Source: Demequina lutea (GTDB lineage: Bacteria; Actinomycetota; Actinomycetes; Actinomycetales; Demequinaceae). Taken from it: DNA of 64,000 nt. The notes beneath the pieces are model-generated. The model searched no databases, had not been told where the DNA came from, and saw nothing but the letters and a program-made list of their open reading frames with translations. The DNA is taken from contig NZ_JACBZO010000001.1 in NCBI RefSeq assembly GCF_013409005.1, forward strand, positions 1,240,001 through 1,304,000. The letters run 5' to 3'. This document shows, in pieces, positions 19,508-42,778 of the stretch. The first letter of the stretch is position 1. Each line of letters starts with the position of its first letter. The translations under genes were made by a program, and so were the position numbers.

Positions 19508-19878
19508 CGGATGAGTTGGCCAGGCGGCCGCGTTGCGGGGAGACCCGTGCCGAGGAACGTCCGGGCTCCGTAGAGCAGGGTGATGGTTAATAGCCACCCG
19601 GGGTGACCCGCGGGAAAGTGCCACAGAAAATAACCGCCTCCGGCCTCGGCCGGCGGTAAGGGTGAAAAGGTGAGGTAAGAGCTCACCGCGTCGCTGGTGA
19701 CAGCGACGGTCACGGTAAACCCCACCCGGAGCAAGACCAGACAGGATGCGTTTGAGGGCTGCTCGCCCGAGTATCTGGGTAGGTTGCTAGAGGCGTGCGG
19801 CAACGTACGTCGTAGATGGATGGCCGCCCGTCTTCTTCGGAAGACGACAGAACCCGGCGTATCGGCCAACTCATCCGC
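19508..19878 (+). ncRNA. rnpB: RNase P RNA
   Basis: The catalytic RNA of RNase P, bacterial type A. Conserved blocks in order are GAGGAACGTCCGGGCTCC, GTGCCACAGAAAATAACCGC, GGTAAACCCCACCCGGAGCA, TAGATGGATGGCCGCC and ACAGAACCCGGCGTATCGGC. Helix P1 is perfect: CGGATGAGTTGGCC at 19508-19521 pairs with GGCCAACTCATCCG at 19864-19877. A TAAAGT box at 19497-19502 sits at the right distance to start transcription at about 19508. The 3' end of this gene is repeated twice further on and appears to be an integration site. A minus-strand reading frame across it is fortuitous. Confidence 0.95.
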
Positions 19879-19879
19879 C
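19852..19879 (+). repeat. rnpB 3' end, copy 1 (putative attL core)
   Basis: The final 28 bases of rnpB plus one or two bases. The same 28 bases occur exactly at 38593-38620, and a longer, diverged copy occurs at 42657-42778, all in the same orientation. The integrase remnant at 19954 points its 3' end at this site, 75 bases away. Confidence 0.75.
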
Positions 19880-19953
19880 TTAAGGTTCTTTACGAGGTGG
19901 TTTGCCCTACGCACTTCTGCGTTGTCCGCACGGTGTCCGCACCGCCAGAACTT

Positions 19954-20670
19954 TCACGCGCCGTGCGCCGAGAGATTGGGCCCCGTGAACTCAGGTCCCA
20001 GCACGTCATCAACGGCGTCGCGGGTGCGGTCCACCGAGTCGGGCCAGAGGTGGGCATAAGTGTCTAGAGTGTCAGAAGCGCTAGCGTGTCCGAGGCGTGC
20101 TTGGACGACTTTGACATTTTCACCTCGACGAATCAGCAGGCTGGCGTAGTAGTGGCGAAGGTCGTGAGACGTGATGCGATCCACGCCTGCGGATGCGCAT
20201 GCCTCATGAAGCGCGTCGTTGAACCGCCGCCACATCAATGGACGGCCCTGTTCGTCGACGAAGACTAGGTCGTCCCCATAACAGGGGCCCCGGGTCGCGA
20301 GATGCTCCTCAAGTGCATCACACACGACTTGAGGTAGGGGGACACTTCGGTAACTTGCGTCCGTTCTCAGTGGTCCGAATGATTTCCTTCCGTTGGTCGT
20401 CCGCATCAGTTGGCGGTCGATTTCGATTGTCTGAGCCTCCAGGTCAATCCGGTTTCGCGTCAAACCGAACGCTTCTGCCTGCCGGAGGCCGGTGCCAGCA
20501 CAGAGAATTATCAGCGCGCGGTGGCCGGTCGGCATTGCATCTGCGAGTGCAACGATTGAGTTCGTGTCCTTGGGTCGGATCCGTCGCGGGGTTACCTTTG
20601 GCGCTTTGACGCCGTGTGCCGGAGACTCCGCAATCAGGCGGTCTGCAACCGCCTGGGGCGTCGTTCTGAG
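19954..20670 (-). pseudogene. Tyrosine recombinase (integrase), N-terminally degraded
   Basis: The catalytic domain is complete: Arg in GTGLRQAEA, His-x-x-Arg in SHDLRHYY, His in RLGHASAS and the Tyr nucleophile in LDTYAHLW. The frame continues upstream of the first ATG (20535) through recognisable core-binding sequence, QAVADRLIAESPAHGVKAPK, but no ATG or GTG is found before a stop near 20790 and the N-terminal arm-binding domain is unrecognisable. It is therefore called a decayed integrase, though expression from 20535 is conceivable. It lies just beside the 3' end of rnpB, as integrases do beside their attachment site. Confidence 0.75.
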
Positions 20671-20905
20671 CGGCTTGGGCCGTGGGGCGCAGATCGTGGC
20701 CCACGCGGCTGGACCGGGCCGCCAACGTCTCGGCTCGCGTCCTCCGTGACTCCGGGGTGCCGACCGCTGTGGTCGTTATGGACGCCGTCTCGTGTGTCCC
20801 GCCGTGTGTCCAGTTGCTACGGAAGCCCTCCGCCAAGCCGCGGCGGTCAACATTGAGTAGACGGGGAATCAGGCCGCCAACGGTTCGTTCGAAGCCCGCT
20901 CACGA

Positions 20906-20935
20906 CGGTGGGGCCCCTTTCAAGGGGCCCCACCG
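20906..20935. terminator. Perfect 14-bp hairpin
   Basis: CGGTGGGGCCCCTT pairs with AAGGGGCCCCACCG around a two-base loop. It has no T-run on the plus strand, so it may be a symmetrical transcription block or protein site rather than a classical terminator. Confidence 0.4.
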
Positions 20936-21048
20936 TTTGCGTTGGGAGGCGACGAAGGGACGCGCAGGGACGCGCGCTCCGGGGCTTCAACCCCGTGCTA
21001 TCAACGATCCGGGCTCTGCACACGGTCTAGGGCGTGCCGCGTAAACTC

Positions 21049-21081
21049 GACCATCCCTCACCCGTGGGGTGAGGGATGGTC
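21049..21081. terminator. Perfect 15-bp hairpin
   Basis: GACCATCCCTCACCC pairs with GGGTGAGGGATGGTC around loop GTG. There is no clear T-run on either side; a bidirectional terminator is the simplest reading. Confidence 0.45.
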
Positions 21082-21211
21082 TGGCACGCGTCACCGTTGG
21101 TGCTGACAGGGAGCGGACAGAAGCGAAGTTGAACGCGAAATAGCCCTGTTGCGATTGACGCCCTGAGATAGCCTTGTCACGATACTTGCCGGTCGCGTGG
21201 AAGGGGGCGTC

Positions 21212-21589
21212 ATGAGGCGACGACTAGTGAGCATGGTCATCGTCCTTTGCGTCGCCCTCGTTGCCGGCGGAGCCTTCGCCTACCACAGCGCCTATGCCAC
21301 GTGGTGGGGAACGCCTGCTCGCCTCCATTACTGCGGGCGGGACTTCGTCCGTGGAACTCCCGATCTGACCCTCGCCGAGATCGTGGGGATCGGGGCCGCG
21401 TTGCCCGGCGATGCGCCCCATCCGGTCGTGACGGTCGCCACGGTCCCGCCGGTCGTCGGCCAACCCCTCGTCGCGGCCCTCCCCCCGCAAGCCGAACAGA
21501 GACGGCTCGGCTTGCCGTGCACCATGGCGGTCTACCTGAAGACCGGAACCGACGCGTACAGCGGTTACGTCCTCTCTGGCGGACCGTAG
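21212..21589 (+). CDS. Small exported protein, unknown function
   Basis: A 125-residue protein from the ATG that follows GGAAGGGGGC; a GTG five codons upstream is an alternative. Residues 1-25 form a signal-like segment, RRR then a run of Val/Ile/Ala/Leu ending GGAFA. The mature part is short, has two Cys (LHYCGRD and LPCTMAV) and a Pro/Val-rich middle, suggesting a small secreted or surface-exposed domain with one disulphide. No family recognised. It lies between decayed mobile elements and may be cargo. Confidence 0.55.
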   Translation: MRRRLVSMVIVLCVALVAGGAFAYHSAYATWWGTPARLHYCGRDFVRGTPDLTLAEIVGIGAALPGDAPHPVVTVATVPPVVGQPLVAALPPQAEQRRLGLPCTMAVYLKTGTDAYSGYVLSGGP

Positions 21590-21937
21590 ACGAGACCGGA
21601 GGAGACCCCTCCCCGCCCTCGACCACGCGGGATGGGCGCGCATGTCGACTAGGCGCTCTCAACGCCGCAGGTCTGGGCGACCTTGGTCGCCGTAAGTTTC
21701 GCTACTGGATCGGTGTCAGGTCACTGGTCTGACGCCGTCGCGGAAGTCATCGGGTCCTTCAGGTGACCATGCTGCCGCCCACAAGGGTCCAGGAGCGATG
21801 ACCCGAACGGGATTGCCGCTGAGCGCCGAATGGGTGGCTGGGGATGTGTCCAGGGCGTGCGGATTTCGCCCGTCTTGAAGTCACGCTCAGCCGCCGTTCA
21901 AGCAGGACTCGGGCCGCATCCGGTTCGCTGACTCACC
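21590..21937. other. Intergenic stretch, nothing recognised
   Basis: No coding region, tRNA or clear repeat is seen in these 348 bases, which lead into the tRNA-Pro fragment. Confidence 0.4.
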
Positions 21938-21979
21938 GGGGGTCAAGGGGTCGCAGGTTCAAATCCTGTCACCCCGACG
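21938..21979 (+). pseudogene. 3' half of a tRNA-Pro(GGG), attachment-site remnant
   Basis: Starts at the anticodon triplet GGG and continues with GGTCAAGGGGTCGCAGG, the T loop TTCAAAT and the acceptor strand CACCCCGA. The 5' half that would supply CGGGGTG is absent. Fragments running from anticodon to 3' end are the usual att core left by tRNA-targeting integrases. Two further diverged copies are at 23269 and 33232. Confidence 0.65.
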
Positions 21980-23200
21980 AATGTGATGTCTCAAGGCATC
22001 GTTCACAGGGGCTTCTCCTTCGGGAGGGGCCTTTTGTGGTTTCCGGGGTTGGTAGTCCTTGTCGGGGTTGATGGTGTGTTCGGCGAGGATTTCGCTGGTG
22101 GTGCGGTCGATGGTGATGGTGTGGGGTCCGTTGGTCAGGACGATGACGGGGCGGTGTTTGTGGGTGCGGCCGATGCCGAGGTGGCGTAGTTGGCCTGCGT
22201 GGCGCAGGGTGATGACGCCGGAGGCGTCGATGTGGTCGAAGCGGATTCGGTAGTGGTGTCCTGCGACGTTGATTGAGGGTGCGGCTGGGGGTGTGGCGGC
22301 GTGGACGGTTGCTGGGGTGCGTCTGCCGATCGCGCGGTGGGGGCGTTCGTGGTTGTAGACGTGGGTGAATTGGTCGAGTTGGTTTTGCAGGGCGGTCAGG
22401 GTGTCGGCTGCGGGGCGTGCGGTGAGCCAGCGTTTCAGGGTTTGGTGGAAGCGTTCGATTTTGCCTTGGGTTTGAGGGTGGCCGGGGTGGCCGTTCTTCT
22501 GACGGATCCCGAGGTCGTGGATGAGCTGTTCGAACTGGCCCAGTCCTGGTGTTCCGGTGGCGAAGCGTGCGGTGAAGATGCGTCCGTTGTCGGTCAGTGT
22601 CGATGCTGGTAGCCCGTGGCGTTCCGCGGCGGCGGTGAAGGTATCGACGACTGTTTTGGCGGTTACGACCTGGTGGGCCGAGATGTGCATGATCATTCGG
22701 GAGTGGTCGTCGAGCCACGTAATGATCTCGACACCGGTGGTGTCGTCCAAGCGCCAGTGGGTCATGTCTGATTGCCAGGTCTCGTTGGGTAGGGCCGCTT
22801 CGAAACGTGTCCACGACGAGCGGGGCCGTTTGTGGGGTTGAGGTGTCACCCGGTCGGTGGCGGCAAGGATGCGGTGGATCGTGGCCCGGGACGGCACTGT
22901 CAGCCCTGAGGCGTTCATCCGGTCCAGGATCGACTCCGCACCAGCGTCGAGACCCGCAGCGGTCAGCCTGTCGCGCTCCGCCACGATCGCGTGGCGGAGC
23001 GTGTCGTCCACCCTCGTCGGGGACGTTCTGGGCGCTTTTGAGCGGGGCGCGACCGCCTCGATGCCCTGTTCGCGGTAGCGGGCCAGCAGCACCCGCAGCC
23101 ACCGTTTCGATACCCCGAACCTGACGGCGGCGTCGGCAACACTCAGCCCGCCCTCCACGATCGCCAGCACCATGACCTCGTTCTTGACTCGTTGCGACAT
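21959..23200 (-). CDS. IS481-family transposase
   Basis: A 413-residue DDE transposase. An N-terminal helix-turn-helix (SVADAAVRFGVSKRWLRVLL) is followed by an rve integrase core with WQSDMTHW, TWLDDHSRM, LTDNGRIF and the Glu helix KIERFHQTLKRWL. A C-terminal beta-rich domain follows. The last eight codons and the stop lie outside the left inverted repeat, in the tRNA-Pro fragment, so the host flank supplies the stop codon. The protein otherwise looks intact. Confidence 0.9.
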   Translation of the reverse strand: MSQRVKNEVMVLAIVEGGLSVADAAVRFGVSKRWLRVLLARYREQGIEAVAPRSKAPRTSPTRVDDTLRHAIVAERDRLTAAGLDAGAESILDRMNASGLTVPSRATIHRILAATDRVTPQPHKRPRSSWTRFEAALPNETWQSDMTHWRLDDTTGVEIITWLDDHSRMIMHISAHQVVTAKTVVDTFTAAAERHGLPASTLTDNGRIFTARFATGTPGLGQFEQLIHDLGIRQKNGHPGHPQTQGKIERFHQTLKRWLTARPAADTLTALQNQLDQFTHVYNHERPHRAIGRRTPATVHAATPPAAPSINVAGHHYRIRFDHIDASGVITLRHAGQLRHLGIGRTHKHRPVIVLTNGPHTITIDRTTSEILAEHTINPDKDYQPRKPQKAPPEGEAPVNDALRHHIRRGDRI

Positions 23201-23268
23201 GCTCCATCGTCGTCAACGGGGTGAACGATGTCTTGAGACATAGGTGAACGATGTCCTGAGATCAGACA
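21982..23268. mobile_element. IS481-family insertion sequence
   Basis: Ends are imperfect inverted repeats: TGTGATGTCTCAAGGCATCG on the left and TGTCTGATCTCAGGACATCG read inward from the right. The right end carries a second, internal copy of GTGAACGATGTC. Both flanks contain CTGTCA-C/G-CCCGACG, either a target duplication of about 13 bases with one change or two att-like copies. One transposase gene fills the element. Confidence 0.85.
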
Positions 23269-23500
23269 CTGTCAGCCCGACGGGGTGAAAACAGGTCGGC
23301 CGAACGAAATCGCAACGACCACCGCCTTGTGATGGAGGTCGCCGCAGTGTGGTGTGGACGTGCGATCGAGCCGGCGCCCACGTGACGGCGCAAGCGTCTT
23401 TGCGCTGCTCAGGGGGTTAGAGGCTGGGGTCCTCTCCAGCGGCCAGTTCGCTGAGTGCCTTTGCCACGTCGCGCTGCCGCTCGCGTTGGGGTGTAGATCC
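23269..23500 (-). pseudogene. att fragment plus integrase C-terminal remnant
   Basis: The left end, CTGTCAGCCCGACG, matches the tRNA-Pro 3' end. After about 150 bases nearly identical to 33266-33420, the minus strand encodes QRERQRDVAKALSELAAGED then a stop, the tail of a tyrosine integrase like that at 38125. Only the tail survives. Unit order att, spacer, integrase tail is the same as in the copy at 33.3 kb. Confidence 0.6.
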
Positions 23501-23575
23501 TCTGCGGTGCACCGTCGGTGCCGGCCTGGTCCTCGTCGTAGCGCAACGGTGCGGGGAATATCACTACACTCTCCC

Positions 23576-23613
23576 TTGCGAAAATGTCACATTCTCCCTA
23601 GACTTTTGTGACA
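23576..23613 (+). promoter_or_regulatory. Promoter and operator of the AbiE pair
   Basis: TTGCGA at 23576-23581 and TAGACT at 23599-23604 are 17 bases apart. The inverted repeat TGTCAC (23585-23590) and GTGACA (23608-23613) flanks the -10 box. AbiEi antitoxins are known to repress their own operon by binding inverted repeats, so this arrangement fits autoregulation. Confidence 0.6.
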
Positions 23614-23621
23614 CGAACAAG

Positions 23622-24326
23622 ATGATCAGGATGATGAAGAAGAGGAGGAGCGAGATCACGATCATGACGAAGACGATGACTAGTCCTTCGAAGTCGAACG
23701 CGTCGATCAAGAGCTCGACGACGCCTGCCGCGGCGATTCGCGCACTCCCGGTGAAGTCCTTCGTGCGTCTGAGTGATCTTCCTGGCACGGATACGGCTCG
23801 CAGGAAGGCTGTGTCCCGCGCGGTTGATAGCGGTGACCTCCTCAAGGTGCGACGCGGTCTGTACTACCGCGGCAAGGCGACGCGATACGGAATGACGCAC
23901 CCCTCTACCGCTGATGTCGTCAACGTCGTGATGGGTCGCGTCGGTGTTGGTCTAGCCGGATTCTCGGCAGCCCGTGAATGGGGAGTGACGACTCAGTTGC
24001 CGGTCAGTGTTCACGTCGCGACCTTGAAGAAAGTTGAGGGTTTCGAGGGCGTGAAGCAGACGGTTCGAAGCAACTTGGCTCGCGCTGATCTCAACGCCAA
24101 GGAGATTGCTCTGCTGGAGTTGATGCGCGAACCTGACGTGTATGTCGAGGCGGGGTGGGACGCCCTTGTCGCGGCGGTTCGCGATGCGATCGTTACCCGT
24201 GCCGTCCGGGTCGACCGCCTCCGGTTCGCTGGGCACTGTGAGTATGACCTTGCGACTGGTTCGAACATTGACCGACTTCTCGATGACGTTGGCGACCTGT
24301 CGCCCACCGGCGCACGCGCGGCATGA
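23622..24326 (+). CDS. AbiEi-type antitoxin / transcriptional autorepressor
   Basis: A 234-residue protein. After a basic, low-complexity start comes a winged-helix segment, VRLSDLPGTDTARRKAVSRA followed by GDLLKVRRGLYYRG, which is the usual opening of AbiEi and related DUF6088 antitoxins. The C-terminal half is the antitoxin domain. Its stop overlaps the toxin start by four bases. The true start could be one of several ATGs up to 23667; 23622 is the first. In the family the antitoxin represses the operon and neutralises the toxin without stable binding (type IV). Confidence 0.75.
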   Translation: MIRMMKKRRSEITIMTKTMTSPSKSNASIKSSTTPAAAIRALPVKSFVRLSDLPGTDTARRKAVSRAVDSGDLLKVRRGLYYRGKATRYGMTHPSTADVVNVVMGRVGVGLAGFSAAREWGVTTQLPVSVHVATLKKVEGFEGVKQTVRSNLARADLNAKEIALLELMREPDVYVEAGWDALVAAVRDAIVTRAVRVDRLRFAGHCEYDLATGSNIDRLLDDVGDLSPTGARAA

Positions 24327-25291
24327 GCCCCCGCCTTCGCGAAGACGCCGATAGCCTCAACGCGCTTGTCGCCCAAACTGCACGCGCTCGTGGGCTGGAC
24401 CCGGCCTACGTCGAGAAGGACTTCTGGGTCACCGAAGTACTCCGGGCTGCTGCGATTGAGCGCACGATCGACGGGGCGAGCGAGGCTACCCGAGTTGTGT
24501 TCAAAGGAGGAACAAGTCTCAGCAGGGTCTTTGGACTCATAGAGAGGTTCTCCGAAGATATTGATCTGCTGGTGGTGTTCCCCGAGGGCCCGAGTGCCAA
24601 GGCCCGTCACAAGATATTTAGGAAGATCGACGCCGACGTGTGCTCCTGGCTCGGTACAGAGAGCAAGTCGCCAGACTCGAGCACAGGGATCCATCGCACG
24701 ACAACCTACGTGTATCCAGCCTCGTATGGATCGAGTGCGATCAAGGAGGTCGTTGTTCTCGAACTCGGCAGCCGCGGGGGCGAGATCCCCGCGAGTGAGC
24801 ACCAATACCGTTCCATGGTGGCGATCTACGCCGAGGAGACGTACGGCGACGACGAGAGTGTTTGGGAGGAGTTTGCCTCCTTCCCGGTCACGGTGCTTGC
24901 CCCCCAGCGCACTCTGCTTGAAAAGTTGGCGGCTGTTCATGCTGCGGTGACCAACAACGACCAACAGGCGATCTTCCAGTTTGGCCGGCACTTCTACGAC
25001 ATTGGGCGACTGCTCAAGTCGGAGCAGGTTCAAGGTGCTCTCGCTCTACTCGGTCCCGATGGAGTCGCGTCGCTCACTGACGACATCAACGACCGTAGCC
25101 AAGCAGCGGGCTGGAAGTGGGTACCGCGGCCGGATGGCGGCTTTGCCGACAGTCCCGCGTTCGACGACCAGCACGAGGCTCACGCGATTGTCCAACGCGG
25201 CTATACGGCGGCGCTGGAGTTGGTCCATGGCGTGGCCCCGTCACTCGCTGAAGTCGTCGACACGGTTCGTGCAAGTCGGGCAATTCTCTAG
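24323..25291 (+). CDS. AbiEii/AbiGii-type nucleotidyltransferase toxin
   Basis: A 322-residue protein. The nucleotidyltransferase core is clear: FKGGTSLSRVFGLIERFSED followed by IDLLV, with the two catalytic Asp of the DxD. The LLEKLAAVHAA helix and the late HFYDIGRLL segment are also typical. Family members transfer nucleotides to tRNA acceptor ends and stop growth, protecting populations from phage. It is coupled to the AbiEi-like gene by an ATGA overlap. No disruption seen, so the system may be active. Confidence 0.85.
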   Translation: MSPRLREDADSLNALVAQTARARGLDPAYVEKDFWVTEVLRAAAIERTIDGASEATRVVFKGGTSLSRVFGLIERFSEDIDLLVVFPEGPSAKARHKIFRKIDADVCSWLGTESKSPDSSTGIHRTTTYVYPASYGSSAIKEVVVLELGSRGGEIPASEHQYRSMVAIYAEETYGDDESVWEEFASFPVTVLAPQRTLLEKLAAVHAAVTNNDQQAIFQFGRHFYDIGRLLKSEQVQGALALLGPDGVASLTDDINDRSQAAGWKWVPRPDGGFADSPAFDDQHEAHAIVQRGYTAALELVHGVAPSLAEVVDTVRASRAIL

Positions 25292-25380
25292 TTCTACACG
25301 CAGCCATCGCCAGACCCCATTCGGGCGCAGGAGTCCGTTGCCGAATCCCTTGCGACGCGGTGGCGCGGCGGCGTGCTTGG

Positions 25381-25776
25381 CTACTGCGGTTCTGGGTAGT
25401 CGAGGCTGATGCGCCACTGTCGGAGCGACTCGAAGTCCGCCTGGGACAGGTATGAGTAGTTGCCACTGCGGTAGGCGGTGATGCCGCGCTGCGCAAGCCA
25501 GCGGCGAAGGCCCGTGCCGCTCACGTGGAGGGTGCGACGCGCCTCCGCGAGCGGCACAAACTCAGAGCGAGGCTTCAGTGTCACGGCGGTGCCGGTCGCG
25601 ACCTGGGAAAGGGCTGTGGTGATCTCGCTCAATGCCGCTGCCTCAGTGGTGTTCAGGCGACGTGTGGCGTTGTCGGGGCCGGCGAAGCGTCCATGGGTGA
25701 CGTTGTTCACCAGCGCGGTCAGCGCGAGTTGGTGCTGCTCGGTCATGGTGATGGTGGTGTGCTTCTGACCATACAT
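25381..25776 (-). CDS. Excisionase-like DNA-binding protein
   Basis: A 131-residue protein starting at an ATG with GAGGAG eight bases before. Its C-terminal 50 residues, LAEARRTLHVSGTGLRRWLA followed by QRGITAYRSGNYSYLSQADF, look like a MerR/excisionase-type helix-turn-helix with wing. The N-terminal half is helical and unrecognised. Integrative elements often carry such genes to control excision. About 75 bases of a second copy, from the C-terminal coding end, persist at 33494-33570. Confidence 0.6.
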   Translation of the reverse strand: MYGQKHTTITMTEQHQLALTALVNNVTHGRFAGPDNATRRLNTTEAAALSEITTALSQVATGTAVTLKPRSEFVPLAEARRTLHVSGTGLRRWLAQRGITAYRSGNYSYLSQADFESLRQWRISLDYPEPQ

Positions 25777-26074
25777 GTGGGCTCCTCAGGTGGGTGGTGG
25801 GGCGTCGTGTTTGCACGGTATCCACGCGGCCTGAAACGGTTGACTTGTGGGCAAGCCAGACCGATGCTCACCCGGTCTGAGGTGCGCCCGCTAATCCCAG
25901 AATGAGGGGTCTGGCGGCAGGTTGAACTGGCTCCGCCAACCCCTGCTAGGCGGAACTGACGCGGGCGCCACCAACACCTCGGTTGCATGGGAGCCGACCC
26001 CTTGCCCACAGTCGTGAAGGTGGTTGCAACAAGTCGTTGCCGCTGATGTCATACCCGTGTCGGACGGTGGTCTC

Positions 26075-26653
26075 ATGAAGATTGGCTATGCGCGTGTGTC
26101 GACGAAGGCGCAGGAGTACGGGATTGCGGCCCAGTCCGCTCAACTTGCTCAACTCGGGATCGAGCCCGCTCGTATCTATACCGATGAGGGCCTGACTGGC
26201 ACCAATCGTGACCGCCCGGGCCTCCGAGAGGCGATGGCCGCGTGCCGTGACGGAGACACCCTCGTCGTGACCAAACTTGACCGGCTTGCCCGCTCAGTCC
26301 TGGACGCCAGGAACATCGTCGACGAACTCGCGAGCCACGGTATTGCGCTGTCCATCGGTGGTTCGACCCATGACCCAAATGATCCTGTCAGTCGATTGCT
26401 GCTCAACGTGTTGTCCATGGTTGCTGAGTTCGAGGCGGACCTCATCCGCGCACGCACCCGGGAGGGAATGGCCGTCGCCGAGGCGAAGGGGAGACTGAAA
26501 GGCAAGAAGCCAAAGTTGTCGCGTCGTCAGGCGGCGCATCTTCTCGATCTTCATCAGGCGGGTCAGCACACGATCGCGGAACTCGCCGAGTTGTTTGGCG
26601 TGGGGCGCGCCACGGTGTACCGCGAGATTGAACGAGTTCCCGTGACGACCTGA
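26075..26653 (+). CDS. Serine recombinase (resolvase/invertase family)
   Basis: A 192-residue recombinase. Ser9 in IGYARVSTKAQ is the nucleophile; the Arg-containing motif VVTKLDRLARS and the SMVAEFEADLIRART helix are present, followed by the RLKGKKPKLS linker and a C-terminal helix-turn-helix, TIAELAELFGVGRATVYREI. Length and order match Tn3-type resolvases and Pin-type invertases. The start at 26075 was chosen because the domain begins there; an upstream in-frame start adds residues unlike the family. No matching transposase is nearby. Confidence 0.88.
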   Translation: MKIGYARVSTKAQEYGIAAQSAQLAQLGIEPARIYTDEGLTGTNRDRPGLREAMAACRDGDTLVVTKLDRLARSVLDARNIVDELASHGIALSIGGSTHDPNDPVSRLLLNVLSMVAEFEADLIRARTREGMAVAEAKGRLKGKKPKLSRRQAAHLLDLHQAGQHTIAELAELFGVGRATVYREIERVPVTT

Positions 26654-26841
26654 CCGTGTCCCAGTGATTATCTGACCGTTTGACGGGCCCCTACCGGGCA
26701 ATTCAACGGACGGGTCTTACGGACACCCTCCGTAAGCGTGCGGGTCCAGGACTCTGAGTGTGTCCGCTGGCCGGACGGCTTTCGGTCGGCTGGTGGTTGC
26801 GTCGTCGCGAGATGCCCCCGCAACAATCGGTCTTCCGAGGT

Positions 26842-26880
26842 GGGCCGGATGAACGGATAGGTGAAAGCCGCACACGGTCC
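26842..26880 (+). ncRNA. Possible group II intron domain V remnant
   Basis: GGGCCG pairs with CGGTCC, enclosing GATGAACGGATA and the capped helix GGTGAAAGCC. This resembles the domain V consensus GAGCCGGATG...GTGAAAG...CACG...CGGTTC, with a few extra bases. No reverse transcriptase or other intron domain is recognised nearby, so it is at most a relic. Confidence 0.3.
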
Positions 26881-27240
26881 AATCGCCTTACGGGACATAC
26901 CCCGGACGGTCGACCTGCTCAAGAGTTGCGGGTTTGCAATGCAACGGGCCGCTCAACTTGAAGTTCAGGGGAAGTCCCGTAGCCAAGTGTCGGCGCCGGG
27001 TGCTGTGAAGACGTCGCTACGCGCCGGAGGGTTCTCGCGGATTGGCGTTGATGTCGGTGTGAACTTGAACATCCGCAACGCCGAGAGCCCCGGCGATGGT
27101 CGACGGCGTGCTACACCACGGCGCGCCCCGCCACCAGGCGGGCCTGGCTCGCAGCCGGAGCAGCGGTCGCCCACGGCCTTTGAGGCGGCGCAGTCCGTCC
27201 CGAAGCCTCTCCCGTCCCGCATAACCGCAGACAAAGCGAT

Positions 27241-32700: not shown

Positions 32701-32709
32701 ATGTACTCA

Positions 32710-33440: not shown

Positions 33441-33489
33441 TTGTGTGGTTCTGGCGCTCTGGCGTCGGGGCCGTGCGCCCCCAGGTGCA

Positions 33490-34297: not shown

Positions 34298-36703
34298 TCA
34301 GTGGGTGAGGGGTGTGCTGGCTGGTTTGCCGAAGTAGTAACCCTGTCCGCATTCCCATCCCTGGTCGCGCAGGATGTCGGCTTGCATCTGGGTTTCGATG
34401 CCTTCGGCGATGCCGGTCAGGTGCATGCCCTTGACCAGACCGTTCACGCCCTGGGTCAGGGCGTTGGCTTGGCTGTTACCGGCGGTGAGGTCGTGGACGA
34501 AGCGCAGGTCGAGTTTGACTCCGGTCACGGGCAGTTCCCGTAGCACCGAGATGGAGGAGTATCCGGTGCCGAAGTCGTCCAGGTGGATGCCAATACCGAG
34601 TTCGCGTAAGGATGTCAGTGCGGTTCGGGCGCAGCCCACCAGGCTCAGGACGGCGGTCTCGGTGACCTCGATCACGATCCGGGCGGGGTCGACCCGGTGG
34701 GCCGCCAGAGTGTCCCGCACGGTGGTGAGCCAGTCCGGCCTGGCCAACTGGACGGCCGAAACGTTGACGCTGACCGGACCGGGCAGGTCCGGATGTTCTG
34801 CGAGGAGGGCGCAGACCTGGTCCAGGACTTGGGCTCCGATGGCGGTGATCAGCCCGGTGGTCTCGGCGATTTCGAGGAATTCACCGGGGCTGAGTAGGCC
34901 GCGGGTGGGGTGCGCCCAACGTATGAGTGCTTCGTGTCCGACCACGTGGGTGTCGGCCAGGGCCACGATGGGTTGGTAAAACACCACGAACTGATTGGCG
35001 GTGATCGCCTCACGTAACTGGTCCTCTATGTTCAGACGGGCCAGAGCCTGGGCGTGCATCGTGTCGTCGAAGAAGTGCCAGCGCGCCCGTCCGTTGGTTT
35101 TGGCCCGGGATAGCGCGGAGTCGGCGTCGCGTAGCAGACTCTCGGGCGTCGACGTCGAGGTCGAGGTGGCGATACCGATGGACGCGGTCGGTACGATCCG
35201 GTGGCCTCGCACCTGCAGATCGGTGGCGATCGCGGCAGACACCCTCTCGGCGTAGCGTTCCATGTCTTGGATGTTTTGGACGCCCTGCACCACGATGATG
35301 AACTCGTCGCCCCCAAAACGTCCAACACGGTCCCCCGCGCGCACAGCGGCCACGATCCGGCCCGCCACCGTGGCCAACACCTCGTCGCCGGCCGCGTGAC
35401 CCAGCGAATCGTTCACGACCTTAAAGTTGTCCAGGTCCACGAACAGTGCCCCCACCGAACGTCCCTCCCGTTTGGCGATGCGCAGATCGACCTCCAGGAT
35501 GTCCAGGATCCAAGCCCGGTTGTGTAGCCCGGTCAGCGAGTCGTGGAAAGCCTGGTAAGTCAAAGCCTCCTGAGCCTTGTGCTCGACGGTGATGTCTTCC
35601 ACCTGGACCATGACCATGTTCGCCTCGCCGTCCTTACCGTGGAGCAGCAACTCCACCCGACGCACCCAGACGGTAGCGCCGTCGGCCCGCACCAGACGCA
35701 ACGTCGTGACGGCCTTCTCGGTCGATCCGGCGATGACCCGGGCGCGGGCCTGGAGAACTTCTTCGACGTCGTCGGGGTGCACGGCGTCCTGCAGTCGGTG
35801 TGCCAGGACGTACGCCTCGTCGTACCCAAGCAGGTCGCACAATGCACGGTTCACGACCTGGATAGAACCGTCCAGGTCGGCCAAGACGATACCAATCGAA
35901 GCAGAACCCATCACCGTACGGACCAGATCCTCCGCCGCAACCAGACTCCGCGCGGTCTCGGCCGCCTTCCTCTGCTCGGTCACATCCCGTGTGATCGTGG
36001 ACGCACCGACGATCGCACCGCCCGCATCATGGATCGGCGAGACGGTGATCGACACCGGGAGTGTGGTTCCGTCCTTGCGGACACGGATGGTCTCATAGTG
36101 CCCGCCAGGCTGACCTGCCCCAATCCTGGCCAGGGTGGCGTTTATGTCGCCGGGTCGATCCTCGAGGTTGAAGAGGTCGATAGGCTTGCCGACAGTTTCC
36201 TCGCTGGAGTACCCGAACATCCTCTCGGCAGCCGGGTTCCAGTTCATGACGATACCGTCGAGCGTCTTACCAACGATGGCGTCCTCAGAATTCCGGATGA
36301 TTGCTGCCATCTGCTGGAGTTCCTGTGCTGTCTTGATGCGCTCCGTGATGTCGCGGATGGCCGCTGTGACGAAGAGGCCGTCCTCGGTTTCGATGAAGGA
36401 CAAACTGACGTCGACGGGGAACTCGGTGCCATCCCGACGCCGTCCAGCCAACTGCAAACCGGTCCCCATGGCCCGAGCCTCCGGGTTGGCAAAGTATCCC
36501 GCCCGGTGCGCCAGGTGGCCCTTTCGGGACAACTCCGGCACCAGTATCTCCATGGGCTGACCCACCAGATCGGTGCGGTCGTAGTCGAACAACAACTCCG
36601 TCTGGCGATTGACAAACCGGATCACACCCGCCGGACCAATCCCCGCCATCGCATCAGGGGCTGCCTCTAGCAGGCCCTGGAAGTCCAACGGGTTTTGCAA
36701 CAT
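34298..36703 (-). CDS. PAS-PAS-PAS-GGDEF-EAL protein (c-di-GMP turnover)
   Basis: An 801-residue soluble signalling protein. Three PAS domains span about residues 8-125, 130-245 and 258-378, each ending in a DIT/DVT-ER motif. The GGDEF domain has an intact GGDEF at 464-468 and could synthesise c-di-GMP; the EAL domain begins with EALIRW at 591 and keeps the ETA, LDDFGTGYSS, KLD and EGIET motifs, so phosphodiesterase activity is also plausible. The PAS domains probably set which activity dominates. No transmembrane segment. It lies within the island, separated from other c-di-GMP genes at 42.8-46.1 kb. Confidence 0.9.
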   Translation of the reverse strand: MLQNPLDFQGLLEAAPDAMAGIGPAGVIRFVNRQTELLFDYDRTDLVGQPMEILVPELSRKGHLAHRAGYFANPEARAMGTGLQLAGRRRDGTEFPVDVSLSFIETEDGLFVTAAIRDITERIKTAQELQQMAAIIRNSEDAIVGKTLDGIVMNWNPAAERMFGYSSEETVGKPIDLFNLEDRPGDINATLARIGAGQPGGHYETIRVRKDGTTLPVSITVSPIHDAGGAIVGASTITRDVTEQRKAAETARSLVAAEDLVRTVMGSASIGIVLADLDGSIQVVNRALCDLLGYDEAYVLAHRLQDAVHPDDVEEVLQARARVIAGSTEKAVTTLRLVRADGATVWVRRVELLLHGKDGEANMVMVQVEDITVEHKAQEALTYQAFHDSLTGLHNRAWILDILEVDLRIAKREGRSVGALFVDLDNFKVVNDSLGHAAGDEVLATVAGRIVAAVRAGDRVGRFGGDEFIIVVQGVQNIQDMERYAERVSAAIATDLQVRGHRIVPTASIGIATSTSTSTPESLLRDADSALSRAKTNGRARWHFFDDTMHAQALARLNIEDQLREAITANQFVVFYQPIVALADTHVVGHEALIRWAHPTRGLLSPGEFLEIAETTGLITAIGAQVLDQVCALLAEHPDLPGPVSVNVSAVQLARPDWLTTVRDTLAAHRVDPARIVIEVTETAVLSLVGCARTALTSLRELGIGIHLDDFGTGYSSISVLRELPVTGVKLDLRFVHDLTAGNSQANALTQGVNGLVKGMHLTGIAEGIETQMQADILRDQGWECGQGYYFGKPASTPLTH

Positions 36704-37025
36704 GCGAATCCTTCCTCTCGCGCAATAGCAAATAGTTCGGATTTCACAAAGTCAGGACAACTCAAGAAACAACCCCGGGTCAACTTTGTGTGATGAATTG
36801 CCCTCGACCGCGTCGACCGCCTCAACGCCGACAACGGGCTCTTCACAAAAGGGGGGTGTGCTGAGCACGGCGCGTCTGTCCGGGGTAGGTGGCTTCGTCT
36901 TGCGCACGGCCACAAACCGCGCCACGCTAGGGGAGTCCCGCTCGGTGGGTCTCCCTCCCAGGGACGCCGCCGAGCGGGCGTGAGCAACCGCAGACGTGTA
37001 GCCAAAGTGCGGTGGTGGCGTGTAG
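36704..37025. other. Intergenic stretch with repeat fragment and hairpin
   Basis: Contains a copy of the helix-turn-helix gene tail (36871-36930) and a hairpin, CCCGCTCGG at 36937-36945 with CCGAGCGGG at 36970-36978, without a T-run. No gene. Confidence 0.45.
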
Positions 37026-37379
37026 TTATTCGAAGGCCAGTGCGGAAGACTTGGCGTTACGGATACGAGTTGCGAATTCGTTTTCCGTGAGAATTTCGAT
37101 CGGGTGTCCCTGTGCCCTCATGTCGGCCACCATGACGGCTACCAGTGTGGGGAAGTCTTGAGGCTCGTGACCTTCAAATCCGTCGCCGATGACCAGGATT
37201 GTCGTCTTGCTCGTCACGCCCCGTTGTAGTGTGCCCCCAAGGAGTGCGACCCGTGCGGCAACTTCGGCTCGTGACAGGCCCAGGGTGCCCGTGAATACGA
37301 CGTGTGCGCCGACGAACAGATCCGATCTACTGGTTTCGGTGTAACTGATGGTTGCGGGGCCTCCTCGATCGTGGCGAAC
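37026..37379 (-). pseudogene. BRCT-domain fragment of a larger DNA-metabolism protein
   Basis: The minus strand reads through about 117 codons: SDLFVGAHVVFTGTLGLSRA, then VALLGGTLQRGVTSKTTILV and IGDGFEG, a BRCT domain as found at the C-terminus of DnaQ-like exonucleases and NAD ligases. The frame is cut by a TAG inside the 24-bp repeat at 37377, so the N-terminal catalytic part is gone. A shorter reading from the ATG/GTG near 37217 would cover only half the domain. Confidence 0.65.
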
Positions 37380-37400
37380 TACCTAACGGCGCACGCCCTC
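37377..37400. repeat. 24-bp repeat, copy 2
   Basis: Identical to 29508-29531 and in the same orientation. It marks the exact point where the BRCT gene is truncated, so it is likely the end of a mobile element or a recombination scar. Confidence 0.7.
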
Positions 37401-37523
37401 ACCTGATCTCCCCGTCGCCATATTCCTAGCACTCGCCTTCGCGATACTGAAGCGTGCGCGGCACGATGTGGGACGACTCACACCAAGTTGCGCGTTTCGC
37501 GTGCACACAGCACTCTAAATACA

Positions 37524-37574
37524 CCCCGCCCGGATGTGTCTCGACCCCCCTCTGAGACCCCGGGCGGGGCTTTT
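37524..37574 (+). terminator. Rho-independent terminator, copy 2
   Basis: CCCCGCCCGG...CCGGGCGGGG with inner GTCTC/GAGAC and a trailing CTTTT. Copy of 32710-32758, two extra loop bases. Confidence 0.8.
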
Positions 37575-37646
37575 CGCGTCCTACAGCGCCCAGTCACCGT
37601 CGCAGGCTGCGCCGCGCCGTACCCCGCGCGGCAACGTAAGCGGAAA

Positions 37647-37808
37647 TTACTTCAGGAACTTGCGTAGCGCCTTTGCTGTCTGTCCGCTCGTTTTGCGATA
37701 TACAGCCTTGCGAACCTCACGCTGACCCAACGCGACCGGACCCTTACGTGCCGCACGCCCCGTCGCCGAGGCCCGGGCCATCCTGTACAACATCGAAGTT
37801 AAACTCAT
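37647..37808 (-). CDS. Small basic protein, unknown function
   Basis: A 53-residue protein from an ATG preceded by GATCTGGAC; a longer frame upstream overlaps a repeat. It is rich in Arg and Lys (ARASATGRAARK, REVRKAVYRKTSGQ) and probably helical. No family recognised. Could be a small DNA-binding or ribosome-associated peptide, or simply an open frame; the terminator at 37524 lies beyond its end on the other strand. Confidence 0.35.
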   Translation of the reverse strand: MSLTSMLYRMARASATGRAARKGPVALGQREVRKAVYRKTSGQTAKALRKFLK

Positions 37809-37948
37809 GTCCAGATCATATCGACGACAATGCCCGCCGAGCCGAAGCCGCCGCACACGTCGCTCACACATGACGAAACCCCCGGCGTGTCGGATCGCCG
37901 GGGCTCTCTCTGGTGTGTGTCTCCCCGCAATGGGGCCCATCGCTGGGG

Positions 37949-38138
37949 CTAGTGCGAGCCGCTTAGAATGCTGTCCGCGTGGTCTGCCACCTCGCGCAGA
38001 ATCCGCGCGTACCTTCGCATGGCGTCGGCGTTGGCGAATGCTACGTGGAAACTGAAGTGCAGTTGCTCGATGATCGGCCCGGGTGCCCCATTGGGATCGT
38101 TCGGTTAAGCCACCATCTCGAACGTCAATGCCTCGTGG
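37949..38138 (-). pseudogene. Small protein, island family, copy 2 (stop codon inside)
   Basis: Reads HEALTFEMVA, a stop, then PNDPNGAPGPIIEQLHFSFH and MRRYARILREV, parallel to the gene at 32891. The TAA in place of CAA near 38105 breaks the frame. It overlaps the end of the integrase remnant at 38125. Confidence 0.6.
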
Positions 38139-38493
38139 CCAGGGCGCTAAGCGACCTGGCCATGAGGCGCTGCCGCTCGCGTTGGACGTGCTGGTAGCGT
38201 GCCGCCGTCTTTGGTGATTTGTGGCCGAGGCGCGACATTACGTCGAAGCCGGATGCCTGGCCTGTCTGCGTCGCGAGGATGGCCAACGTGGGTTGAAATT
38301 CGTGGACACGCTTGTCGGGCACACAGTCTTCCGGCGGTCTTGACGTCGCTGCGCACGAATACGGCTTTGAAATTTGGCTGCCCAGAGCGGGTGGCTTCGG
38401 CTTGCGCACGTCCGCACGTCCGCACGTCCGCACGTCCGCACGTCCGCACGTCCGCCCGCAGCAGATTGTCCGCAAACTGTCCGCAGCACGCAT
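38125..38493 (-). pseudogene. Tyrosine integrase C-terminal remnant
   Basis: The last 45 codons read FDVMSRLGHKSPKTAARYQH followed by VQRERQRLMARSLSALA, keeping the second active-site His and the Tyr. Upstream, the frame runs into a tandem octamer encoding (RADVRTCG)n and lacks Arg and HxxR. It sits 100 bases from the exact 28-base rnpB copy at 38593, consistent with an integrase at the right end of an element. Confidence 0.65.
38407..38454. repeat. Six tandem copies of an octamer
   Basis: CACGTCCG repeated six times without error. It lies inside the integrase remnant and is absent from the related remnants at 23.4 and 33.4 kb. Confidence 0.9.
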
Positions 38494-38592
38494 GGCTCCA
38501 GATGGCTCAAGACGACGGTGAACGCCGTGTCATCCCTGGTAATTACGACATAGGTGGCTCTAGATGGCTCTAGGTGTACACGCAGGAGCATT

Positions 38593-38620
38593 ACCCGGCG
38601 TATCGGCCAACTCATCCGCC
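38593..38620 (+). repeat. rnpB 3' end, copy 2 (putative attR)
   Basis: Identical over 28 bases to rnpB positions 19852-19879, from ACCCGGCGTATCGG to CATCCGCC. Nothing of the rest of rnpB is present, and the sequences on both sides are unrelated to rnpB. Length and position suit a recombination core. Confidence 0.8.
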
Positions 38621-38750: not shown

Positions 38751-40058
38751 ATGACCATGGAGAGCCCACAGCCCGCAGACCCGACGATTGACGCCGCACC
38801 TCAGCGTCGGCGGTCACGCTGGCGCGGGGCACTCCGCCCCAAGGTGGGCGTGATCGCCGCCTCGGTGCTCGCCCTGGCGTACGTCGCTGGGGTCGGCGTA
38901 TGGGCCGCGAGCACGAACACCACCTCAGCAGCGACGACGGCGCAGATCGGCACGGCACCGAGTCTGGGCAACGCGCCCTCGGGCGAGGCGGGTGGCGGCT
39001 ATGTGGGCCCGCGTCAGCGATATGTCGGGCCGCGCCAGGGCTACACCTACCCCGGGAACGGTACGACTTCGCCGGGGACCACGACCTCGACGGAGGCGGC
39101 CGCGACCACCGCGTCCGCCTCCGAGTCCACGGGCCTGGTCCTCATCGAGACCGTGCTCGGCTACGACCGGGCCGCGGCTGCAGGCACAGGCGTGGTGCTC
39201 ACGAGCGATGGACTGGTCCTCACCAACAACCACGTCATCGACGGCTCGACCGCGATATCGGTGACCATCGCTGCGACTGGCAAGACGTACACCGCGACTG
39301 TCGTGGGCACTGATGCGACGGACGATGTGGCCCTCCTCCAGCTCCAAGGTGCAACCGGTTTGGCCACGGCGACCCCGGATAAGAACGCCGAACCCGCCGT
39401 CGGCGCGGGTGTGACAGCGGTGGGTAACGCCTCCGGCGGCGGCGTGCTGTTGGCCGCAGACGGCGTGGTCACCCAACTGAATTCCTCCGTCACCACCTCG
39501 TCGGAATACACGGTGCAGGGGGAGACGCTCGGCGGGATGATCGAGTTCGACGCCGCCGTCGTGGGCGGCGATTCGGGCGGCGCGCTGCTTGACAAACAGG
39601 GTGAGGTGGTCGGCATCACGACCGCGGCCTCGGTCGGACGTGCCACCACGGTGGCCTACGCGATTCCGATCAACAGTGCGCTGGCGATCGTCGACCAGAT
39701 GCGGGCTGGCAACCTGTCTGCTGGCGTGAAGCTCGGCTACCCGGCCTTCCTGGGCGTCGCGATCGCGAGGGACGGCACGACCGGCATGCTGGTGCCCGGT
39801 CAGGGTGCTGGTGGGGCGAATGCGGTCGCAGGCGCACAACTCACCTACGTCTACGCCAACACCCCTGCGGCATCCGTGGGCCTGGTAGCGGGGGACACGA
39901 TCACCGCGATCGGCGGTCAATTGGTGACGAGCGCAGACGACCTGTCGACCGCGATCTCGGGCCACAAGCCAGGCGACTCTGTGAGCCTGACCTGGACGGA
40001 CACGGGCGGAGCGACTCAGTCCGCCACGGTGACGCTGATGCAAGGGCCTGCCGCGTAG
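38751..40058 (+). CDS. HtrA-like serine protease with PDZ domain
   Basis: A 435-residue membrane-anchored protease. A short cytoplasmic tail is followed by one transmembrane helix (residues about 31-52), a Gly/Thr/Ser-rich linker (55-125), a chymotrypsin-fold domain and a C-terminal PDZ domain (about 320-430). The triad is intact: His161 in TNNHVIDG, Asp191/192 in DATDDVALL and Ser275 in GGDSGGALL. It should act outside the membrane in envelope protein quality control. Two in-frame ATGs (38751, 38757) are possible; GGGAGAGAACC precedes. It lies between two rnpB copies, so may be island cargo. Confidence 0.9.
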   Translation: MTMESPQPADPTIDAAPQRRRSRWRGALRPKVGVIAASVLALAYVAGVGVWAASTNTTSAATTAQIGTAPSLGNAPSGEAGGGYVGPRQRYVGPRQGYTYPGNGTTSPGTTTSTEAAATTASASESTGLVLIETVLGYDRAAAAGTGVVLTSDGLVLTNNHVIDGSTAISVTIAATGKTYTATVVGTDATDDVALLQLQGATGLATATPDKNAEPAVGAGVTAVGNASGGGVLLAADGVVTQLNSSVTTSSEYTVQGETLGGMIEFDAAVVGGDSGGALLDKQGEVVGITTAASVGRATTVAYAIPINSALAIVDQMRAGNLSAGVKLGYPAFLGVAIARDGTTGMLVPGQGAGGANAVAGAQLTYVYANTPAASVGLVAGDTITAIGGQLVTSADDLSTAISGHKPGDSVSLTWTDTGGATQSATVTLMQGPAA

Positions 40059-40074
40059 CTGTCGTTCGGTGGCC

Positions 40075-42219
40075 TCAGCCGACGCCCTCCGCGGCGAGCG
40101 CGTCGGTGAGCAGACCGACTAGGGCTTCGAGTTGTACGTCCACAGATGCTTCGACGTCCTCGTCCGGCGCCCCATCCAAGGCCCGGGCCGCCAGGCCCGA
40201 CTTGGCGTCGATCAGCGCGGCGATCTTGGAGTCGATGGTCTGCGCGGCGATGACCCGCCACGCGGTGACGGGCTCCTCCTGGCCGATGCGGTGGATCCGG
40301 TCGATGGCCTGTGTCTGCTCGGCGTCGGTCCAGGACAATTCGGCGAGCACCAGGTTGGAGGCGACCTGAAGGTTCAGCCCCACGCCCGCCGCCATCAGGG
40401 AGCACACCGCGATCGCGACATCGGGGTCGTTCTGGAACGCGGCGATGTTCTTCTCGCGCGCCTTGGGTGTCTGGTCGCCGCGGATCGAGGAGTAGCGGAT
40501 GCCGCGATCGGCGAAGGTCTGCTCGGCCTGATCCATCACGTCGATGTGCTTGGCGAAGAACACGACCTTGCCGACGTTGCGCGCGAGTTGCGCGGCGTAG
40601 TCGGCGGCCAGTCCGGCCTTGGCTTGCCCGATCCTGCGGACCATCGTGAAGACGTTTTCCGCGCCGCCTTGCCCGCTCGACTCCTTGAGCTCCCACGACG
40701 CGACCCTGCGTATGAGTTCGTGGTCTATCCCGTCCACGACAACGCCGCTCCTGCGCGCCTCCAGCGCGGACCGGTAGCGACCGACCAGTCGAGCGGCAAG
40801 CGCGGCCTCGGCCGCGCGGATCGAGCGACCGGCCGCGCCGTCGAGCTCGACCGGCAGGTCCGCCACGCGGCGGGCGGGGATGTCGGCGGCGACGTCGATC
40901 TTGCGGCGGCGCACGATGCCCATGTCGATCACGCTTGCCCGCGCGGCGGAGTAGAAACCCTGGTCGACAGGAGTGAGTCCGGTCTCCTCGAGGACGCCCA
41001 TCAGTGCGCCGAGCGGCATCGTGTCGTCGATCCAGCCCAGGAACTGCCAGATCGCTCGGAAGTCCTCGATGTCGTTGATCAGAGGGGTGCCGGTGAGCGC
41101 CATCAGTAGCGGCCGGGCCGCGCGGGCGCGGATCCGGTCCGAAAGCGCAAGGATGTGTTGCGAGCGCTGGGAGCCCTTGTTCTTGATGAAGTGCGCCTCG
41201 TCGACGACCATGCCGCGGAAGCCGAGGTCTCCGAGCCAGCCGACGTGCCTATCCAGGAGCTCGTAGTTCACGATCACGATGTCCGCGAAGGCGTCGACCC
41301 GATCGCCGTCGCCGTGGACCACCGTGGACCGACGCTCGGGCGTCCACAGGTCGACCTCGTGCGCCCAGTTCGTCTTCACCACGTTGGGTGCCACTACGAG
41401 CAGCGGGTAGGCGTTGGCCGCCTGGGCGGCGAGCAGCGCCTGGGCCGTCTTGCCGAGCCCCGGTTCGTCCGCGAGTAGGAACGTGCGATGGCCGGCGGCC
41501 GCAGCCGCGACGACCTGCGCCTGGTGCGGCATGAGCTGTCGACCGAGGGGAGCGAACGTCGAACGGGCGGTAGGTAGCGGCATGCAGGCGGGCACGCCGT
41601 CGGTACCACGCTCGAAGGACCTGAAGAGAGGCTCAAGCAGCTCCCAGCCGGCCAGGCGCCGGGCCCGCGAGGCGGTCCGCGCGGCCGCGGCCTCGAAGTC
41701 GGGCGCAAGGAATGGGTTCGCGAGTTGGCGAGAGATCACCGACTGGGGCACCACCTGACTCTTGGCGCCCGGCAACGGCGCGGCGGGCGCCACGGGAGCT
41801 GGTTCCTCGGGCGGCTCCAGCCCCCCGGCACGCATGAGGGTCGCCTTGAAGGAGCGAGCAGAGTCGGAGACCCTGGCGTCGTCGGCGAGAAGCGTGAGCA
41901 GGGAGGTGTCGCGGGCGGCGGTCCTGGCAAGAAGGGTCGCCACCCCGTCGAGTTCCTTGAGCTTCTTGGTGCGTTGCGCATCGGTCGTGCCGGTGTCCGC
42001 CAATACCCGGGCCCTCTCCTCTCGCACGAGCAGCGCGACCACCTGAAACTTGGTGCGCACCACCGGGCGCGTCGGCGGTTGCCGCACGGCGCCTGCGACC
42101 TCCTGGGCGACGCCTGCGAGGACCGCGATGATTCCCTGCTGGGCGGGCGGCTTGCGGCGCTGCTGAGCGGCACGCGAAGTGCGCGCGCCACCGGACCGGC
42201 GTTGGCCTGCTCGTGCCAC
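40075..42219 (-). CDS. SNF2-type helicase/ATPase
   Basis: A 714-residue superfamily 2 ATPase. Motif I is DEPGLGKT (GLGKT at 254-258), motif II DEAH at 340-343, motif III LTGTP, and motif VI QAIDRIHRIGQ, the usual RapA/SNF2 set. An N-terminal region of about 200 residues is helical, basic at first (RRSGGARTSRAAQQRR) and unrecognised. The GTG start follows AAGGAGGAGAT. SNF2 proteins in bacterial islands often remodel nucleoprotein or belong to defence loci, but no nuclease, methylase or other partner is beside it. It is tail to tail with the protease gene. Confidence 0.88.
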   Translation of the reverse strand: MARAGQRRSGGARTSRAAQQRRKPPAQQGIIAVLAGVAQEVAGAVRQPPTRPVVRTKFQVVALLVREERARVLADTGTTDAQRTKKLKELDGVATLLARTAARDTSLLTLLADDARVSDSARSFKATLMRAGGLEPPEEPAPVAPAAPLPGAKSQVVPQSVISRQLANPFLAPDFEAAAARTASRARRLAGWELLEPLFRSFERGTDGVPACMPLPTARSTFAPLGRQLMPHQAQVVAAAAAGHRTFLLADEPGLGKTAQALLAAQAANAYPLLVVAPNVVKTNWAHEVDLWTPERRSTVVHGDGDRVDAFADIVIVNYELLDRHVGWLGDLGFRGMVVDEAHFIKNKGSQRSQHILALSDRIRARAARPLLMALTGTPLINDIEDFRAIWQFLGWIDDTMPLGALMGVLEETGLTPVDQGFYSAARASVIDMGIVRRRKIDVAADIPARRVADLPVELDGAAGRSIRAAEAALAARLVGRYRSALEARRSGVVVDGIDHELIRRVASWELKESSGQGGAENVFTMVRRIGQAKAGLAADYAAQLARNVGKVVFFAKHIDVMDQAEQTFADRGIRYSSIRGDQTPKAREKNIAAFQNDPDVAIAVCSLMAAGVGLNLQVASNLVLAELSWTDAEQTQAIDRIHRIGQEEPVTAWRVIAAQTIDSKIAALIDAKSGLAARALDGAPDEDVEASVDVQLEALVGLLTDALAAEGVG

Positions 42220-42656
42220 ATCTCCTCCTTCTCAGCGTTCGCGCCGTCATTGCGGTGTGACGCGTCATGCCGCGGCCTCCGGAGACTGGGCGGGTGTCGA
42301 GCCCGCGCCCGTGTCACTGGAAACCCGTGTCACTGGAAACCCAGGTCACGCAAAACCCAGACCAGGGCGACCACATGGGGCGCCCCGCCACCGCGCAACT
42401 TCTCCGGCTGCGTCCCCGACTGCGCCGAGCGCAGGTCCGTGCTCGTACCGATGGTGTCACGTCATTGTGCATCTTTGCGAACCACGGCGGGTTGGTGCCG
42501 TGGTCTTGCTGCCCAATGGAGAACCTGAAACGTCCCGCCAGACACGTCGTCCGAGTCCGGTCCGACAATGATCTCACGTGAAGCCCCTGGACCTGCAGCA
42601 GGCGGCTTGGCGGCCCGGAGCGGGTTCGCCACCACTATGGTCCATGCGATACCGAT
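42220..42656. other. Intergenic stretch with short tandem repeat
   Basis: No gene seen. Units CCCGTGTCACTGGAAA at 42308-42323 and 42324-42339 are identical, and a third, diverged unit follows to 42355. Confidence 0.5.
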
Positions 42657-42778
42657 CGAGCATCTGGGTAGGTTGCTAGAGGCGTGCGGCAACATGCGTC
42701 GTAGATGGATGGTCGCCCGTCGTGCCCCATGCACGACGACAGAACCCGGCGTATCGGCCAACTCCTCCACCTTCAGGG
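42657..42778 (+). repeat. rnpB 3' end, copy 3 (diverged, about 120 nt)
   Basis: Matches rnpB 19768-19885 almost throughout, including GGGTAGGTTGCTAGAGGCGT, TAGATGGATGG and AGAACCCGGCGTATCGGCCA. The variable stem differs but still pairs (GTCGTGC/GCACGAC here, GTCTTC/GAAGAC in rnpB). The P1 strand has two changes. The 5' two thirds of rnpB is absent, so it is not a second functional gene. Confidence 0.88.

Follow-up and report, generated by a model that had tools for sequence, protein, structure and literature searches.

A 64,000-nucleotide stretch of Demequina lutea DNA (contig NZ_JACBZO010000001.1, positions 1,240,001 to 1,304,000; the window) carries rnpB, the gene of the class A RNase P RNA, together with two further copies of its 3' end, all three ends in one orientation. 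The gene occupies 19508..19879 on the plus strand and matched RF00010 with 320.9 bits (19512-19877) over all positions 1-367 of the model, thus the target gene is whole, as an earlier note on this DNA had claimed. The 5' strand of helix P1, GGATGAGTTGGCC, starts at 19509; the 3' strand of this helix is part of the last 28 nt of the gene (19852..19879, +), a repeated sequence that constitutes the putative attachment (att) core of attL and is referred to as copy 1. Copy 2, the putative core of attR, is located at 38593..38620 (+) and is identical in 28 of 28 positions. Copy 3 (42657..42777, +), recognized as a repeat and by comparison with relatives, corresponds to the last ~118 nt of rnpB with 86.8 % identity over 121 columns and has a hairpin of the type present in the same-genus genomes G013 and G032; its core at 42744-42771 agrees with the last 28 nt of rnpB in 26 of 28 positions. 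Both the exact 28-base recurrence and a copy of about 120 bases near 42.7 kb had been noticed in the earlier note and were confirmed. A 21-nt piece of the core, searched with up to three mismatches, was present only at these three sites in the whole 3.1-Mb genome, the reversed-pattern control at none. The sole tRNA gene of the window lies at 15689-15763; the island described below targets rnpB and no tRNA or tmRNA gene.

Copies 1 and 2 bound a decayed element body of 18.7 kb (19880..38592); this is the island proper, instead of the 23 kb assumed in the earlier note. A pair of arm-type sites, reading GTCCGCA-n4-GTCCGCA on the plus strand, was found 44 nt beyond rnpB (19924..19941, annotated on the minus strand), and a second pair 125 nt ahead of the core of copy 2 (38468..38485, -). 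Across the whole window a loose form of the pattern occurred only here, at 19924 beside copy 1 and at 38468 beside copy 2. The integrase remnants that the earlier note placed beside these copies were of unequal quality. The first (19954..20652, -; tblastn, PF00589) starts 75 nt past rnpB and holds the catalytic domain in one open frame, without the N-terminal part; it matched PF00589 with E 1.4e-26 and residues 137-354 of the intact integrase of the relative G001 (P0001) with 49.8 % identity (E 6e-68). The first ATG of the frame gives a gene of 19954-20535, and a stop is located upstream of the frame. The second tyrosine-recombinase remnant (38125..38340, -) is weak; its last 71 residues matched a PHROG integrase family with E 1.2e-4, and it matched no Pfam family at E 0.01.

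We interpret copies 1 and 2, with a probability of roughly 94 %, as attL and attR of one integrative element that would have entered the 3' end of rnpB via a tyrosine integrase, because the only two arm-site pairs of the window adjoin them. The attP of the circular element would contain about 28 nt copied from the 3' end of rnpB, with one strand of P1, the 3' one, among them, flanked by arm-site pairs with an 11-bp period at about 44 nt on one side and 110-140 nt on the other. The integrase is expected to bind core and arms and to cross over within the core; excision of the element would presumably also occur. Since attP supplies an equivalent 3' end, rnpB would remain whole and the duplicate core would mark the far end of the element. 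The copy of the element in the window is probably dead, because its integrase lacks the N-terminal part and transposases are present inside.

Among 36 same-genus relatives, five of which offered less than 7 kb of sequence downstream for the search, extra rnpB ends were present in four, G001, G002, G020 and G024, and all were short. In G001 an intact integrase of 376 amino acids directly follows rnpB and an exact 28-nt copy lies 9.6 kb on; the interval includes a terminase small subunit and excisionase-like and repressor-like helix-turn-helix (HTH) proteins. The copies in G002 and G024 bound only about 1.2-1.3 kb, with no integrase among the gene calls. The integrase of G001 and 22 homologues were aligned and genome contigs were scanned by protein similarity alone, without regard to rnpB. 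The scan yielded 149 stretches encoding an integrase relative, and the best 80 of these 149 were kept as loci. rnpB was present in 68 of the 80 loci: in 49 its 3' end lay no further than 600 nt from the end of the integrase (0.02 loci expected by chance in a simple estimate), with a gap of 31-75 nt in 38 of the 49, and in 19 it was situated 0.6-9.6 kb from the integrase. In six of these 19 both genes were on one strand, with rnpB first (L113, L128, L131, L132, L134 and L142, four of them mycobacterial). A tRNA or tmRNA gene at the integrase end was detected by ARAGORN in none of the 80 loci. A distal copy of the own rnpB end, 25-37 nt long, was recovered in 24 loci, most copies starting at a CCCGG or TCCGG that precedes the end by about 25 nt. 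The contig titles of L077 ('Bacillus') and L105 ('Bacteroidales') are read as misassignments. Of 25 rnpB genes in a set from Geodermatophilus, 14 had integrase sequence at a distance of up to 1.5 kb and another two had only an arm pair. A strict attL signature occurred in one of 396 genomes of the phylum, the genome of the window itself, and a looser signature in 10 of the 394 genomes from the class, including this genome; reversed controls gave 0 among the matches listed in both cases. Phage records contained nine integrase matches at E 1e-30, the best with 37 % identity. In Promicromonospora iranensis a decayed second integrase (L206 18-322, E 4e-14) was observed right after attR, a case of tandem elements at rnpB.

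The arm sites recur at these loci. The direct pair GTCCGCA-n4-GTCCGCA was located between core and integrase in 45 of 73 attL regions, 43-49 nt from the rnpB end, and a similar pair preceded the distal core in 17 of 29 attR regions, at a distance of 108-138 nt in 16 of the 17 when the nearest pair was counted; the background was 3 in 1298 random stretches of 260 nt. Often the last part of the integrase gene extends into the pair, and this overlap may be why the C-terminal residues of the protein hardly vary. A spacer motif like CTGACCTGC, chosen after looking at the spacers, was present in 34 of 44 loci versus 76 of 2040 background stretches. In a scan of 19 genomes, 17 had a strict arm pair and the reversed control gave none. 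Nine arm pairs far from rnpB were fetched: beside seven the core was present as expected, matching at 27-32 of 32 positions, beside one it was weak (24) and the ninth had none, and the elements thus implied measure about 12-24 kb. Core and arm sites were also encountered in viral contigs, which may be fragments: L159 and L168 have the core with arm pairs on both sides and no rnpB, L161 has one fitting and one imperfect arm pair, and L154 has core and arms at the contig end opposite the integrase. These arrangements look like attP sites.

Empty sites were sought with a query composed of rnpB of M. aurum, the core and the sequence after attR, in 78 Mycobacterium genomes, with a match considered contiguous if it started at query position ≤27 and ended at ≥463. 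Among the matches listed, the predicted empty site was uninterrupted in 49 of the 78 genomes. In M. aurum the query was split 16 kb apart, and positions 151-179, the 29-nt core, were present in both parts; in six genomes (G127, G129, G138, G170, G172 and G185) a second core copy was located away from rnpB. In the other 22 the matches listed were separate or partial and included no second core, or, in one genome, there was no match. Two Mycobacterium genomes, G150 and G153, had a contiguous rnpB-end match and a second match (positions 1-174) far away, possibly extra rnpB copies. For the window, rnpB followed by an HtrA gene in the relative G009 aligned with copy 2 followed by HtrA; the score was 73.5 with the core excluded, to which the similarity of the HtrA coding sequence contributes, and the best of 200 shuffles reached 9.5.

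A quick tree of 115 integrase rows included 80 labelled rnpB, namely 56 adjacent to the gene, 19 with the gene in the locus and 5 from viral contigs with the core. All 80 fell into one group of 100 rows with a support of 94 in the Shimodaira-Hasegawa-like approximate likelihood ratio test (SH-aLRT). The label changed 13 times on the tree versus a mean of 30.2 after shuffling, and none of 500 shuffles was as low, but it does not form one clean side of a tree branch. Five sibling integrases outside the group, with 33-38 % identity and located near the same arm motif, are sited at tRNA-Tyr or tRNA-Arg genes. Judged by the loci, the distal copies, the empty site, the attP-like sites and these tRNA-sited siblings, the group is one integrase clade largely specialised on rnpB. 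The suggestion of the earlier note that rnpB serves as an att site is strongly supported by the integrase clade found next to this gene across Actinomycetota, along with the arm sites, the distal cores and one empty site. The cargo was inspected in 25 elements with both ends, chosen by their integrase. A small HTH gene was common to 12 of the 25; a phage capsid gene was present in five (L104, L110, L114, L120 and L134), two of these having the large terminase too, and a TrwC relaxase in three (L088, L102 and L107).

Several observations weigh against the interpretation of copies 1 and 2 as attL and attR of an rnpB-specific element. The integrase in the window is truncated. rnpB was missing from 12 of the 80 loci, two of which (L105 and L135) have core-like sequence. 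The arm pair, as searched, was absent from 28 of the 73 attL and 12 of the 29 attR regions, and neither the window nor G001 has the spacer motif. The comparison of relatives' rnpB loci, proposed in the earlier note, gave G009 with its HtrA gene after rnpB, but G009 is a distant relative and no close relative had the empty site of the island. An empty-site test in Geodermatophilus failed, as the flank after attR of L081 matched other attL regions or lay past a decayed piece. An inner group of seven rows in the tree, among them L098, is without rnpB and seems to use another target; L098 lies, by its look, within what we take to be a TadA/CpaF-type ATPase gene, and L147, elsewhere in the tree, adjoins a gene that is presumably YajQ-like. 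Because of this rnpB-less group and these two integrases at protein genes, the target has probably switched again within the clade. Finally, copy 3 is unaccounted for.

Plain segmental duplications, or duplications borne by insertion sequences, could produce such repeats with no integrase involved, and the island has several transposase genes. For copies 1 and 2 this origin is contradicted by the exactness of the core, by arm pairs beside each of them, by the integrase clade at rnpB and by an empty site; copy 3 is not touched by this contradiction, and as an account of the repeats duplication is very improbable. The earlier note considered instead that rnpB had been used twice, by two elements in tandem at 19.88-38.62 and 38.6-42.78 kb. 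The common orientation of the three ends is in line with this, and tandem use occurs elsewhere (L126). However, the stretch from 38.6 to 42.8 kb contains no arm pair, also none near copy 3, and neither of the two proteins scanned there matched an integrase. These are an HtrA-like protease (38751..40058, +), which directly follows rnpB in G009, and a SNF2-family helicase (40075..42219, -), single-copy in the genome and near rnpB in many relatives, both outside the element. Moreover, copy 3 has about 120 nt versus 25-37 nt for the distal copies in 24 other loci, and it bears the hairpin of relatives. A further element between copy 2 and copy 3 is therefore not supported and was rejected as improbable, since arm sites are missing from the stretch and its genes are, in relatives, neighbours of rnpB. 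The reading of copy 3 as a normal attR was likewise rejected on its length, the extra rnpB ends in 4 of 36 relatives all being short.

Copy 3 is probably the result of a separate, older event. It agrees with rnpB of G032 in 104 of 111 positions and of G013 in 103 of 111, but with rnpB of the window in 96 of 111, and the latter gene has 97.2 % identity to G032 in its 5' part and 89.3 % in its 3' part. At about even odds, copy 3 is the native 3' end of rnpB, displaced to 42.7 kb by an older recombination inside the gene, homologous or by another integrase, by which rnpB obtained a foreign last third; an unselected fragment should not be closer to the relatives unless it were the older sequence. 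On the other hand, the hairpin varies fast, and no single event fits the flanking genes, as the two genes left of copy 3 are closest to G013 and those further right to G032 and G003. The main alternative is that the hairpin of rnpB in the window may simply have mutated, because the close relative G003 has yet another hairpin.

Inside the island, a transposase with an rve domain (21959..23200, -) is followed by the cargo genes of an AbiEi/AbiEii toxin-antitoxin-like pair (23622..25291, +), a serine resolvase (26024..26653, +; PF00239) and a cargo protein with beta-propeller and immunoglobulin-like repeats (27449..29431, -; He_PIG, NHL, YNCE). Transposase pieces and one HTH_38/rve transposase (30066-31625) occupy 29569..32435 (-); the latter sits amid fragments of another transposase, and the region probably represents nested insertion sequences. 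A PAS-GGDEF-EAL protein (34298..36703, -) is further cargo. A small gene of unassigned function is present twice, at 32891-33256 and about 37.9-38.1 kb, and a related gene borders the distal att of the element in G001 on its inner side. An 8-bp tandem repeat like CGTCCGCA, at about 38403-38456, adjoins the attR arm pair and resembles a multiplied arm half-site. Virion, packaging or transfer genes were not found among the island proteins scanned, which represent a part of its open reading frames. Outside the island, the SNF2 gene is convergent with rnpB in G000, G013, G020 and G035 and codirectional in many other relatives; its best PADLOC matches are DpdE/ZorD-like, yet it is single-copy. An ordinary thiamine pyrophosphate riboswitch is located at 1604-1712 on the minus strand.

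Among RNA genes, the docking sites given in textbooks are those of tRNA and tmRNA, and tyrosine-integrase islands and prophages in such genes were reportedly described by Williams in 2002 (Islander). The rnpB elements share with these islands the integrase abutting the 3' end of the RNA gene, an attP that restores the gene, the direct core repeat and the arm sites; in contrast, their target is the essential, usually single-copy gene of a ribozyme, and the core is its P1/3' end. Compared with the classes that we recall as phage satellites and integrative mobilizable elements, some rnpB elements have capsid or large terminase genes and others a TrwC relaxase; the integration module is common and the cargo differs. 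Unlike some of these, the island in the window has neither a phage nor a relaxase gene among the proteins scanned. Mycobacterial prophages also use tyrosine integrases in actinobacteria; the portions consulted of a study on M. abscessus give tRNA or tmRNA genes for 16 of 23 prophage sites and other sites for seven, and rnpB is not mentioned in the text consulted (PMC10654092). In the open-access literature searched, rnpB was not found described as an att site. In the portions consulted, rnpB is not named as an integration site in PMC2386152, PMC2516327, PMC2705793, PMC2864759, PMC3751929, PMC10654092, PMC7921747, PMC6582537, PMC10111431, PMC12884075, PMC8776855 and PMC8371274; of these, PMC8776855 uses the rnpB promoter and reports tRNA-Leu. 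The mechanism is a known one, but for its use on rnpB, and for a clade devoted to this gene, the open-access literature searched appears to contain no earlier report.

As a tentative proposal, rnpB may be a docking hub of Actinomycetota, where one clade, sister to tRNA-targeting integrases, has specialised on the conserved P1/3' end and is used by satellites and small cassettes as well as by mobilizable elements; recombination at the site may also swap the last third of the RNase P RNA, as in copy 3, so that mobile DNA would remodel a host ribozyme. rnpB with its own integrase clade adds a class of att sites and a new place for prophage and island finders to look, and this class explains rnpB-end fragments in genomes. 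For actinobacteria poor in genetic tools, it provides integrases whose natural landing site is conserved. It makes testable the move of the clade from tRNA genes to rnpB and on to protein genes, as well as the effect of an insertion on RNase P.

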